From the NCBI RefSeq assembly GCF_016862915.1, contig NZ_BONW01000001.1, forward strand, positions 558,001 to 622,000: a DNA stretch of 64,000 nt, given 5' to 3'. The stretch is from Plantactinospora endophytica. Its GTDB lineage: Bacteria; Actinomycetota; Actinomycetes; Mycobacteriales; Micromonosporaceae. This document shows positions 49,133-59,483 of the stretch, one piece after another. The position numbers and the translations under genes were made by a program. Within the stretch, counting starts at the first letter, position 1; each line of letters begins with the position of its first letter. Below the pieces are notes generated by a model. That model ran no database searches, was not told where the DNA came from, and saw only the letters and a list, made by a program, of their open reading frames with translations.

Positions 49133-50233
49133 TCAGGTCGCGGCGCGGCGGTTGCGGGTGGTGCGGGGGTTGGGGGTGGCCGGGGTGCCGCCACTTGGCT
49201 GGGTCGGGACCAGGTCGCCGGTCAGGCCCTCGGCGGCCATGCCCTCGGCGGCGAGTCGTCGGGCCGCCCAGGGCGTGATCACGAAGCCGCGTTTGACGGT
49301 GAGCAGTTGCACCCCGGCCGTCCACGCCTGGATGCCCTCGATCCCGCCGAGTGTCTTGGTGGTGAACTCGAAGACGTCGGCGTGGGTCGGCAGGATCACC
49401 TCGCACATCAGCGACTCCTGGCCGAGCGTGGCGGCGACGTAGCGGACGCCGCGCAGCGCGGCAAGCTCCCGGGCCACCCCGTCGAGCCGGGACGGTGCCA
49501 CCGAGAGCCAGAACAGGATCTCCGCCTCGAAGCCGAGCGCCGCCGCCGGTACCAGCGTGATCACCTGTACGCAGCCCGCGTTGTACAGCGACTCGAACCG
49601 TCGCCGTACCGTGCTCTCGCTGACCCCGAGCCCGCCGGCCACCGCCTGGAAGCTGTTCCGGCCGTCCTCGCGCAGCGCCGAGATGATCCGCTCGTCCAAC
49701 TCGTCGAGGTGTGCGGGGGGACAGTCGTGCACCGGCGGCGGGGCGACGAGTTGGCTCTCGGTGCCGAGCAGGTGCCGGGACCACTCGTGGGTCGACTTGT
49801 AGGTGTGCAGTTCCAGGTCGGCGACGCTGCCCTGCACCCCGGGGATCTTCTGCAACCCGTTCAGCAGCACGCTGTGCAGGCTGGTCCCCTTCGGCACCAG
49901 TACCTCGGCGACCAGGTCGTAGACCCCGGTGACCAGGGCGACGAACCGAATCTCCGGCATCGCGGCCAGCGCCTGTGCGGCGGCGAGCTGGCTGCCCGCC
50001 GCGCAGCGGATCCGGACGATCAGCAGGTCGGCCGGGCCGCCGCCGGGCTGCGGCGCGGCGGCGACCTTGACCAGCCCGTCGGCGAAGAGTTGCTGTGCCC
50101 GGCGGGCCACGGTGGTGACCGAGGTACCGGTGAGCTGGGCGATCTCCGTCCAGCTCGCCCGGCCGTTGACCTGGAGCGCGGCGACGATCCGTCGGTCGGT
50201 CGGATCGAGGTCGTAGGTCTCGCCCAGGATCAT
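49133..50233 (-). CDS. double-length Lrp/AsnC-family regulator
   Basis: At 366 residues this is twice a normal Lrp. Unit 1 has a helix-turn-helix at about 8-60 (LDPTDRRIVAALQVNGRASW, TSVTTVARRAQQL) and a ligand-sensing RAM domain (about 75-145). Unit 2 repeats both (LDELDERIISALREDGRNSF, VSESTVRRRFESL, then a RAM domain to about 310). The tail is Pro/Thr-rich. Lrp proteins sense amino acids and control their transport and degradation; as the last gene of the transporter/hydrolase operon it is the likely local regulator. ATG 50233 overlaps the hydrolase stop by four bases. A fused dimer-like protein might bind asymmetric sites. Confidence 0.92.
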   Translation of the reverse strand: MILGETYDLDPTDRRIVAALQVNGRASWTEIAQLTGTSVTTVARRAQQLFADGLVKVAAAPQPGGGPADLLIVRIRCAAGSQLAAAQALAAMPEIRFVALVTGVYDLVAEVLVPKGTSLHSVLLNGLQKIPGVQGSVADLELHTYKSTHEWSRHLLGTESQLVAPPPVHDCPPAHLDELDERIISALREDGRNSFQAVAGGLGVSESTVRRRFESLYNAGCVQVITLVPAAALGFEAEILFWLSVAPSRLDGVARELAALRGVRYVAATLGQESLMCEVILPTHADVFEFTTKTLGGIEGIQAWTAGVQLLTVKRGFVITPWAARRLAAEGMAAEGLTGDLVPTQPSGGTPATPNPRTTRNRRAAT

Positions 50234-51126
50234 GCCCGGAGCGCCGGTACGCCGGCCAGGAACTCCCGGACGACCTGCTGGAACCGCTCCGCCTCCTCCA
50301 ACTGCGGGGAGTGCCCGGAGTGCTCGAAGATCACCAGTTTCGCGTCCGGGATCAGCCCGGCGATGGTTTCGCTGCACTCCACCGGCGTGATCCAGTCGTG
50401 TCGACCCACGGTGACCAGGGTCGGGCAGGAGATCGCCGGGAGCAACGACTTGATGTCGTAGTTGGGCTGGTTTACGGCGAATGCGAAGTTGTGCGTGGCG
50501 TACCGGTACGGGGTGCTTTCTACCCGTTGCCGTACCTTGTCCCAATCCAGGTCGTGGTCGTAGAGCGGCAGGATCTCCGCCCAGCAGTCCCGCAGGTCGT
50601 CGTCGTCCTTCACCGTGCCGGACATGATCCGGTCCAACTTCACCCGGTCGATCTCCACCCGGGCCGAGTCGAGCGCGTTGCGCAGCGCCAGCTCCTGGTT
50701 GGCGTTGTCGGCGGCGGTGTCCCGGAGCACCAGCGCGGTCACCCGCTCCGGGTAGCGGATCGCGTACTCCATCGAGACGAAGCCGCCGTACGAGCCGCCG
50801 GCCATCACGATCCGCTCGGCACCGATCCACTCCCGCAGCCCGTCCACGTCGGCGGCCCACTGCTCGTGGGTGAACGGCCCGTTCCCCTCGCTCGCCCCCG
50901 AGCCCCGGGCGTCGAAGACCACCACCCGGTACTCGTCGGCGAAGGCCGCGAAGGACGCCCTCGGCTCGGCCATCGAGCCCAGCCCCGGCGCGCCGTGGTG
51001 CACGATCATCACCGGCTTCTCCGGCGCGTCGCCCTGCCCGGGCGCGTCGTTGCCGAGTACCAGCACGTTCAGCCGGTTGCCGTTGATCTCCACCATCGTC
51101 GGTTCGCTGCTCACGGTCATGCTCAT
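50230..51126 (-). CDS. alpha/beta hydrolase (proline iminopeptidase-like, S33)
   Basis: The 298-residue protein has an oxyanion-hole region HHGAPGLG, strand VVVFDARGSGAS, nucleophile elbow GGSYGGFVS (Ser about 120), catalytic Asp in GRHDWITP and His in FEHSGHSPQLEEAE. DARGSGxS after the first strand and the length suggest the proline iminopeptidase/epoxide hydrolase group, which removes N-terminal residues from small peptides or opens amides and esters. It overlaps the M24-fold gene (ATGA) and the Lrp gene, so it is embedded in the operon. The substrate is presumably what the transporter imports, but this is inferred. Confidence 0.88.
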   Translation of the reverse strand: MSMTVSSEPTMVEINGNRLNVLVLGNDAPGQGDAPEKPVMIVHHGAPGLGSMAEPRASFAAFADEYRVVVFDARGSGASEGNGPFTHEQWAADVDGLREWIGAERIVMAGGSYGGFVSMEYAIRYPERVTALVLRDTAADNANQELALRNALDSARVEIDRVKLDRIMSGTVKDDDDLRDCWAEILPLYDHDLDWDKVRQRVESTPYRYATHNFAFAVNQPNYDIKSLLPAISCPTLVTVGRHDWITPVECSETIAGLIPDAKLVIFEHSGHSPQLEEAERFQQVVREFLAGVPALRA

Positions 51127-57301: not shown

Positions 57302-58336
57302 GTGACTAGCGGGGTAACAAGCTCACGGCGGTCACCCGATGCCGACCTGCCGGCCGCACTGCGGGTCCGGGATCTCGACGTCACGTTCACCGGCCGGCGC
57401 GGCACCGTCCCGGCGGTACGCGGAGTCGACCTCGACATCGCGGCCGGCGAGGTACTCGTGCTGCTCGGCGAGTCCGGCTCAGGCAAGTCCGTCACCGCCC
57501 GCGCCGTGATGGGCCTGCTCGATCCCGGCGGCGTGCAGGTCCGGTCCGCGCAGACCGTGGTCGCCGGGCACGACCTGACCGCCGCCGACCCGGAACAGGT
57601 CCGCAAGCTGCGCGGCAAGACCATGGCGCTGGTCTTCCAGGACGCGCTCTCCGCACTCAACCCGGTGCTCTCGATCGGCGACCAGCTCGGCGAGGTGTTC
57701 CGGATCCACCGTGGGCTCTCCCGCCGGGCCGCCCGCGCCGAGGCCGCCGAACTGCTCCGGCTGGTCGGCATCCCGGCCCCGGACCGACGGGTACGCGACT
57801 ACCCGCACCAGTTCTCCGGCGGCATGCGGCAACGGATCCTGATCGCCATGGCGGTCGCGCTCGGCCCCCGGCTGCTGATCGCCGACGAGCCCACCACCGC
57901 GCTCGACGTGACCGTGCAGGCGCAGATCCTGCAACTCGTCGACCGGCTCCGCACCGAACTCGGGATGGGCGTCCTGCTGATCACCCACGACCTCGGGGTG
58001 GCCGCCGAGATCGCCGACCGGGTCGCCGTGATGTACGCCGGCCGGATCGTCGAGACCGGCACCGTCGCCGAGGTACTCGACGGGCCGGCCCATCCGTACA
58101 CGGCGGCGCTGCTGCGCTCCGTACCCGACCTGGCCCAGCCGGGCGACCGGTTGCGGCCGATCCCGGGCAGCCCGCCGAACCTGCTGGCACTGCCCAGCGG
58201 CTGCGCCTTCCATCCGCGCTGCGACCGGGCCACCGAGGAGTGCACGGTGACCCGCCCGCAGCGGCGGGCGCTCGCCGTACCCGGTCGGAGCGCCGCCTGC
58301 CACCACGCCGAGGAGGCCGTCGATGCCCCCGTCTGA
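57302..58336 (+). CDS. dppD: dipeptide ABC transporter ATP-binding protein (DppD type)
   Basis: The 344-residue ATPase carries Walker [12 protein letters not shown], the Q-loop in [14 protein letters not shown], signature [13 protein letters not shown], Walker [14 protein letters not shown] and the H-loop LITHDLG. A C-terminal oligopeptide-transporter extension with CAFHPRC and CTVTRPQ may hold an iron-sulfur cluster, as known for DppD/OppD. GTG 57302 follows CGGGAGG. Together with the next gene it powers DppBC encoded on the opposite strand. Confidence 0.93.
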
Positions 58337-59483
58337 CCACCCGGCCGGGCCCGGCCCAGCCTCCGCCGGCCCGGCCGGGTCCACCCCCACCACCGTCGGT
58401 ACCCCGACCGTGCTCTCCGCCTCCGCCGGCCCGAACACCTCCGGCCCGCTGACCGCCGACGCCCCGACCACCGGCGAGCCGCTGCTGGTCGCCACCGGGC
58501 TCCGCAAGACCTACCGGGCCGGGCGCGGCCTCGGCAGCAGCTCGCGGGTACACGCGGTGGACGGGGTCGACCTGACCGTGGCGGCCGGCGAGACCCTCGG
58601 CGTGGTCGGCGAATCCGGCTGCGGCAAGTCCACCCTGGCCCGGCTGCTGGTCGGGCTGGAACGCCCGGACTCCGGCCAGGTCCGCTTCGCCGGGCTCGAC
58701 GTCGGTACCGCCCGGGGCACCCGCCGCCGCGAACTGCGCCGCGCGGTGCAGATGGTCTTCCAGGACCCGGTCACCTCGCTCAACCCCCGGATGCCGATCC
58801 TGGACGTCGTCGCCGAGCCGCTCGACGTGCACAAACTCGCCCGGGGCGCGGTCGCCCGCCGGGACCGGGTCGCCGAGTTGCTGGAGATGGTCGGGCTGGC
58901 CCCGGACATGATGCGTCGGTTCCCGCACGAGTTCTCCGGCGGGCAGCGGCAGCGGATCGGCATCGCCCGGGCACTCGCCACCGAACCCCGGGTGGTGGTC
59001 TGCGACGAGCCGGTCTCCGCGCTCGACGTCTCGGTACAGGCCCAGGTGGTCAACCTGCTCGCGGAGTTGCAGCAGCGGCTCGGCATCGCCCTGGTCTTCA
59101 TCGCGCACGACCTCGGGGTGGTCCGGCACGTCTCGCACCGGGTCGCGGTGATGTACCTCGGCCGGCTCGCCGAACTCGGCCCGGCCGGCACCGTCTACCA
59201 GGACCCGGCCCACCCGTACACCCGGGCGCTGCTCGGCTCCGTGCCGGTACGCCATCCGCGCGAGCGGGGCCGGGAGCGGATCGTGCTGGCCGGCGACCCG
59301 CCGAGCCCGGTCGACCCGCCGTCCGGCTGCCGGTTCCACACCCGCTGCCCGATCGCCCAGGACATCTGCGCGCGGGAGACCCCGGCACTGCTCGTCCCCG
59401 AGGGCGACGCACCCTCCGTCGCCGGGGAACGCGTCGCCGCCTGCCACTTCGCCGGTACCCCGGTCACCCCCGGCCGGGAGTAG
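58323..59483 (+). CDS. dppF: dipeptide ABC transporter ATP-binding protein (DppF type)
   Basis: The 386-residue ATPase has about 50 disordered Pro/Thr-rich residues, then Walker [27 protein letters not shown], signature [15 protein letters not shown], Walker [14 protein letters not shown] and the H-loop IAHDLG. The C-terminal [14 protein letters not shown] cysteine motif is the family's iron-sulfur-type extension. ATG 58323 overlaps dppD by 14 bases. The N-terminal extension is longer than in most relatives, so an internal start is possible, although none has a good ribosome site. Confidence 0.93.

Follow-up and report, generated by a model that had tools for sequence, protein, structure and literature searches.

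The five metal-ligand positions of the M24 family read Asp, Asp, His, Glu and Glu, as in the prolidases and aminopeptidase P of group M24B. Creatinase (1chm, 7yto and 1kp0) is altered at three of the five, and we take its His232 to be catalytic, Glu262 and Glu358 to bind the guanidinium group and Arg335 to bind the carboxylate. The ectoine hydrolases DoeA/EutD share the M24 fold and also have changed metal ligands; DoeA opens the ectoine ring, and importers likewise occur in clusters for ectoine catabolism (PMC5924519). Here, we describe a nine-gene locus of Plantactinospora endophytica, from lrp to dppF at positions 49133-59483 of a 64,000-nucleotide stretch (hereafter the window) within a 9.68-Mb genome, in which an M24 protein stands together with a Dpp-type ATP-binding cassette (ABC) importer, an alpha/beta hydrolase, an M19 hydrolase and a tandem Lrp regulator. 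We consider it probable, at approximately 0.6, that the locus is a self-contained, horizontally moving cassette for the uptake and hydrolysis of a small and unusual peptide-like or amide compound, in which a creatinase-type M24 enzyme works together with the alpha/beta hydrolase and the M19 protein. Among the open-licence papers listed by searches at title and abstract level, none described such a cluster or such an M24 protein.

According to open reading frames (ORFs), Pfam matches and the raw sequence, the nine genes form one divergent unit, as the preliminary description of this DNA had stated. The minus-strand arm encodes, in order of transcription, the M19 'membrane dipeptidase' family hydrolase (55879..57087; PF01244, 210.3 bits against a cut-off of 26), a substrate-binding protein of the SBP_bac_5 family (54266..55879; PF00496, 262 bits), a DppB-type permease (53217..54182; PF00528 and PF19300), a DppC-type permease (52297..53220; PF00528 and PF12911), the M24-fold protein with its creatinase-like active site (51123..52289; PF00557 and PF01321), a proline-iminopeptidase-like alpha/beta hydrolase (50230..51126; PF00561, 99.9 bits) and the tandem Lrp/AsnC regulator (49133..50233). 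The plus-strand arm consists of the DppD-type (57302..58336) and DppF-type (58323..59483) ATPases, each with PF00005 and PF08352. The dppD frame is open from 57071, and its likely start is the GTG at 57302, which is preceded by GGAGG. From lrp upwards, the junctions of the minus-strand arm are overlaps of 4 and 4 bp, a gap of 7 bp, an overlap of 4 bp, a gap of 83 bp and an overlap of 1 bp, while dppD and dppF overlap by 14 bp. The gap of 83 bp before dppB had been given as the only larger spacing; it is present, but approximately 214 bp between the arms (57088-57301, from the m19 start to the likely dppD start) had gone unmentioned.

This gene set is kept well beyond Plantactinospora. A scan of named genomes with an M24 profile found 170 relatives, and the best 80 of these were kept, so counts out of 80 refer to the closest relatives; genes of the one-strand arm were matched at ≥40% identity and Lrp at ≥35%. 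The genes for M19, binding protein, DppB, DppC, M24 and hydrolase lie on one strand, together with an Lrp match, in 79 of the 80 loci, the sole exception (L129) being on a contig of only 3.1 kb. An ATPase of DppD/DppF type on the opposite strand was found in 78 loci (all except L129 and L066). The Lrp match is on the same strand in 69 loci and divergent in 10. A dppC-dppB order in four of the 80 rows derives from the midpoints of stop-to-stop ORFs and is not claimed. The loci cover 11 named families, and every locus with a named phylum belongs to the Actinomycetota (four are without a family, one of them also without a phylum), and the genera include Leifsonia, Microbacterium and Arthrobacter; the M24 protein of Plantactinospora mayteni is 95% identical to that of the window. 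Because all but one of the 80 retrieved loci retain these genes, the grouping exceeds chance, and the operon is real and conserved, in support of the dedicated uptake-and-hydrolysis operon proposed earlier.

Its distribution is sparse. Among 296 genomes sampled from the phylum, only two (G162 and G062) and the own genome had an M24 match above 41% identity (E 1e-40 or better), and among 397 genomes of the order, eight, counting the own genome, had a match that reached E 1e-90 or better. The nine other genomes from both samples (2 of 296 and 7 of 397) have M24 matches of 55-63%, and all nine contain M19, binding protein, DppB, DppC, M24, hydrolase and ATPase gene(s). Five of them show the divergent layout with Lrp; the other four are co-directional with no Lrp match in the fetched stretch, one of which (L054) ends at a contig end. 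At seven loci of more distant M24 proteins (35-46% identity within the aligned region), which include the non-canonical L049, no operon genes were found beyond one weak hydrolase match. A search of viral contigs with the single window sequence returned no relative. Flanking genes were considered as a hint to the substrate and dropped: no flanking ORF family is shared by more than 14 of the 80 loci, and the family representatives listed, all from Microbacterium loci, look like local synteny. In Candidatus Lumbricidophila eiseniae (L141, 10001-11152), the M24 match is interrupted by an in-frame stop.

The M24 protein carries the most distinctive changes. Its metal-ligand positions read S243, E254, H318, E347 and S361, so three of five ligands are replaced (S243, E254 and S361, of which E254 is a conservative Asp-to-Glu change) and H318 and E347 are kept. 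The preliminary description had counted four as lost; its direction was good, but this key count was wrong, and both its observation and its interpretation are borne out in part. The complete set of five ligands is present in 27 of 28 comparison rows; the exception (L012) was drawn as a canonical row but proved non-canonical, and is excluded from the count of 27. H226, S243, E254, E256 and H318 are identical in all 81 M24 rows, as are E347 and S361 in all 80 rows reaching that far, and Glu256 stands where canonical M24 proteins have Thr or Ser. This conservation and a dN/dS of approximately 0.18, measured against two close relatives, speak for a functional enzyme. Judging from these residues, the enzyme has departed from the dimetal design of the peptidases, and it probably represents a subfamily of new chemistry. 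His226, earlier taken as a creatinase-type feature, is indeed there, but its equivalent also occurs in each of the 27 rows whose five ligands are complete, as well as in the four creatinases compared; hence it is not a mark of creatinase.

The likeness to creatinase lies in the fold and in four matching residues. The structural model of the M24 protein (predicted local distance difference test score 92.7) has the two-domain creatinase fold, and creatinases were its top three matches in a comparison that drew on Foldseek's 1000 best chains. His232, Glu262, His324 and Glu358 of creatinase correspond to His226, Glu256, His318 and Glu347 of the window protein, the pairing of Glu262 with Glu256 being confirmed by the creatinase chains, and both enzymes are replaced at three of five ligands; the likeness claimed earlier thus holds. 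Nevertheless, identity to creatinase is only 20-24%, the second ligand is Ala in creatinase and Glu254 here, and the fifth is His in creatinase and Ser361 here. At the first position, creatinase has Asn in an ungapped alignment and the window protein Ser243; the idea that creatinase shares this Ser was therefore dropped. The position of Arg335 is taken by Trp329, both by ungapped counting from His318/His324 and in the larger of two MAFFT alignments, and Trp is found in all 80 readable rows; the two alignments differ by one residue at this point, and the smaller places a neighbouring creatinase Glu opposite Trp329.

Ectoine hydrolase, also put forward earlier as a model, was rejected. The NCBIfam model TIGR02993 scores 61.2 bits on the window protein against a cut-off of 613, and one DoeA-like sequence (L144, itself below that cut-off and with 6twk as its best PDB match) keeps neither H318 nor E347. 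Further, Pfam finds among the nine genes no deacetylase, aminotransferase or dehydrogenase, the partners named for ectoine clusters (PMC5924519). An actinobacterial M24 gene without operon neighbours (L012, 1501-2640) encodes G, E, E, H, E and S at window S243, E254, E256, H318, E347 and S361, with the same glutamate pair and last Ser; in the tree, its long branch groups with the creatinases.

The M19 protein is highly conserved, 66-97% identical across 79 loci and, like the M19 dipeptidases 2i5g, 3id7 and renal dipeptidase 1itq, has the Pfam M19 domain and conserved Glu165, His232, His253 and Asp324. The usual zinc motif of the first strand in M19 enzymes is HxD, whereas the window protein has HDH, with both His invariant in 17 sequences; one alignment keeps the Asp by means of a one-residue gap. 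No NCBIfam model matched this protein at E 0.001, and the M19 profile reached E 1e-90 or better in four of 396 actinobacterial genomes, the own genome included. In the alpha/beta hydrolase, Ser112 (within GGSYGG), Asp244 and His272 are invariant in 16 sequences. The importer has all five subunits of the Dpp/Opp peptide systems (SBP_bac_5, two permeases and two ATPases with oligo_HPY), but none of the NCBIfam matches listed for it reaches its cut-off. The best-scoring solved chains for the binding protein, namely Lmo0135, AppA and DppA, were set aside as a substrate guide, being generic peptide and nickel binders. Annotated relatives carry the names 'Xaa-Pro peptidase family protein' and 'membrane dipeptidase'.

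Related gene sets occur in other organisms, with varying composition. Terrarubrum flagellatum (Alphaproteobacteria) has DppDF- and DppBC-type genes, an M24 gene (56%), two hydrolase genes and a binding protein gene. On two Deinococcus plasmids (KNUC1210 and QL22), binding protein and permeases are followed by M19 (approximately 60%), hydrolase and M24. The M19-hydrolase-M24 segments (L149, 8935-12226; L150, 8962-12220) encode M24 proteins of only 36% (KNUC1210) and 33% (QL22) identity to that of the window, whose ligands are changed in nearly the same way: G, E, E, H, E and S stand at window S243, E254, E256, H318, E347 and S361. In L150, a BPL_N-domain protein precedes M19. Three other Deinococcus plasmids carry binding protein, permeases, an M28 peptidase and M19, and two haloarchaeal plasmids M28 and M19, in Halolamina with an Asp/Glu/hydantoin racemase-family gene between them. 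M28 lies beside or near M19, with no M24 adjoining, in L151, L155, L156, L153 and L154; a PA domain was matched in the M28 module of L151 and, weakly, in that of L154. A Paenarthrobacter plasmid combines an MFS transporter, a tandem Lrp, M19 and an M20 amidohydrolase, and approximately 7 kb from these lie a second M20 gene and, on the other strand, a dihydropyrimidinase gene. In a further genome (G032), an Lrp match and M19 lie where the contig ends, next to an ORF whose sequence resembles, by eye, a sodium/solute symporter. Neorhizobium plasmids carry M24 genes (approximately 50%) with an ABC importer and an AstE/AspA-type gene, and Ala replaces the second of the two Ser ligand positions in Neorhizobium M24. 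Two M24 genes stand in tandem in L061 and L062: in L062 (Neorhizobium galegae plasmid, 10524-13155) both have changed ligands and precede the importer and the AstE/AspA-type gene, and in L061, a related plasmid, each of the two is fragmented. The tandem genes on Neorhizobium galegae plasmids raised the idea of galegine as a candidate substrate, but Neorhizobium sp. EC2-8 also has a match.

These comparisons suggest that, Terrarubrum excepted, M19 is the part that stays constant, in some cases together with Lrp, and that the transporter and the other hydrolases vary; M19 was therefore placed last in the proposed pathway. Its M28, M20 or M24 partners elsewhere speak for peptide-like substrates; the N-acyl, guanidino or cyclic amide compounds suggested earlier are candidates only. 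In our proposal, the Dpp-type importer would take up a small peptide-like or amide compound, which three cytoplasmic hydrolases would dismantle. The M24 protein would act as a creatinase-type C-N hydrolase using His226 with Glu256 and Glu347 (and Glu254) in place of a dimetal centre, the serine alpha/beta hydrolase would be another of the three, and the M19 metal hydrolase would most likely perform the last, common cleavage to amino acids. If the M24 protein is a metal-free amide hydrolase, the Xaa-Pro peptidase label misleads for the whole subfamily. A recurrent actinobacterial nutrient pathway would then become testable, and the binding protein might by itself be enough to identify its compound.

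Several observations weigh against this proposal, and one rival is ordinary peptide scavenging, in which a prolidase-like M24 enzyme would work with a single metal while M19 and the hydrolase finish short (proline-containing) peptides. The phylogeny called for earlier did set the M24 clade apart (100/99) from four creatinases, but joined it to the canonical group, albeit with long branches and long-branch warnings. The clade scores 202 bits with metal prolidases against 144 with creatinase. With its Pfam M24 and Creatinase_N domains, the window protein has its highest sequence scores with M24B enzymes and its best PDB profile matches with prolidases. The hydrolase likewise comes from a proline-peptide family, and the binding protein is of a generic type. 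E254, H318 and E347 could hold one metal, which is the strongest rival to a metal-free centre. Moreover, no M19 match was found in the 29 kb seen of Terrarubrum flagellatum, so M19 need not be a universal last step. Nevertheless, we hold peptide scavenging to be rather unlikely, given that two of five ligands are Ser in all 80 readable relatives, that Glu256 has replaced the canonical Thr/Ser, that Deinococcus retains almost identical changes and that a housekeeping role misfits so patchy a distribution (within the order, 8 of 397 genomes, counting the own).

The creatinase likeness could also be read literally, with Glu256 and Glu347 holding a guanidinium group, M24 freeing urea or ammonia, and M19 and the hydrolase trimming the rest of a guanidino or amidine compound. 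The presumed guanidinium-binding glutamates match position by position, and creatinase is the best structural match, but the presumed carboxylate-binding Arg335 has become Trp329 throughout and Pfam places none of the nine genes in a urea or guanidine family, which makes this reading very unlikely. Cyclic dipeptides (diketopiperazines) or other cyclic amides, whose ring M24 or M19 would open before the other hydrolases split the dipeptide, are the least probable substrates weighed here. Diketopiperazine-degrading isolates include members of Leifsonia, Microbacterium, Arthrobacter and Rhizobium, the responsible enzymes are unclear, and a hydrolase plus a dipeptidase are reported for cyclo(Gly-Leu) (PMC3852281). 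The first three genera also bear the operon, but this is a coincidence at genus level only and serves as a lead. M19 lies near the dihydropyrimidinase gene in Paenarthrobacter and adjoins the racemase-family gene in Halolamina, although the former is on the other strand and approximately 7 kb off. We think it quite unlikely that the M24 proteins of the cassette and their Deinococcus cousins, as a new family of C-N hydrolases that need no metal, open and split cyclic or otherwise protected dipeptides together with the variant M19 and so provide missing enzymes of bacterial diketopiperazine-type catabolism.

The regulator agrees with the double Lrp described earlier, in that Pfam finds the AsnC helix-turn-helix (PF13404) and the ligand-binding domain (PF01037) in two stretches each. 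In our proposal, it would sense a product and act at the m19-dppD intergenic region (57088..57301), a possible operator/promoter. An element, TTGC-N-A-NN-AT-NN-GGC, often followed by GTCAA, lies there upstream of m19 and is common to many relatives. It occurs with ≤1 mismatch in 26 of 79 loci against 1.0% of letter-shuffled sequences, and with ≤2 mismatches in 45 of 79 against 9.7%, counts that are inflated by related loci because the pattern was drawn from their alignment. The element is consistent with a regulator-binding site within the divergent promoter, putatively one for Lrp.

The operon looks acquired, because tatD and ksgA, usually close together in relatives, flank it here, with matches 11,155 bp apart (48938-60091). 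Among 25 relatives from the family, tatD and ksgA matches are ≤100 bp apart in 8 and ≤3.3 kb apart on one strand in 20; of the remaining five, one lacks a ksgA match, two have the genes at a long distance from each other, one has them on opposite strands and in one they are split over two contigs. The tatD-ksgA interval of the window is thus a likely insertion site, and a ksgA-operon-tatD arrangement recurs in L064, L065 and L067; we infer that the cassette is mobile. The own genome contains a second copy (L043, on contig C38), which is co-directional, has two M19 genes and shows no Lrp match in the fetched stretch; a GntR/UTRA-type gene adjoins its second M19 gene.

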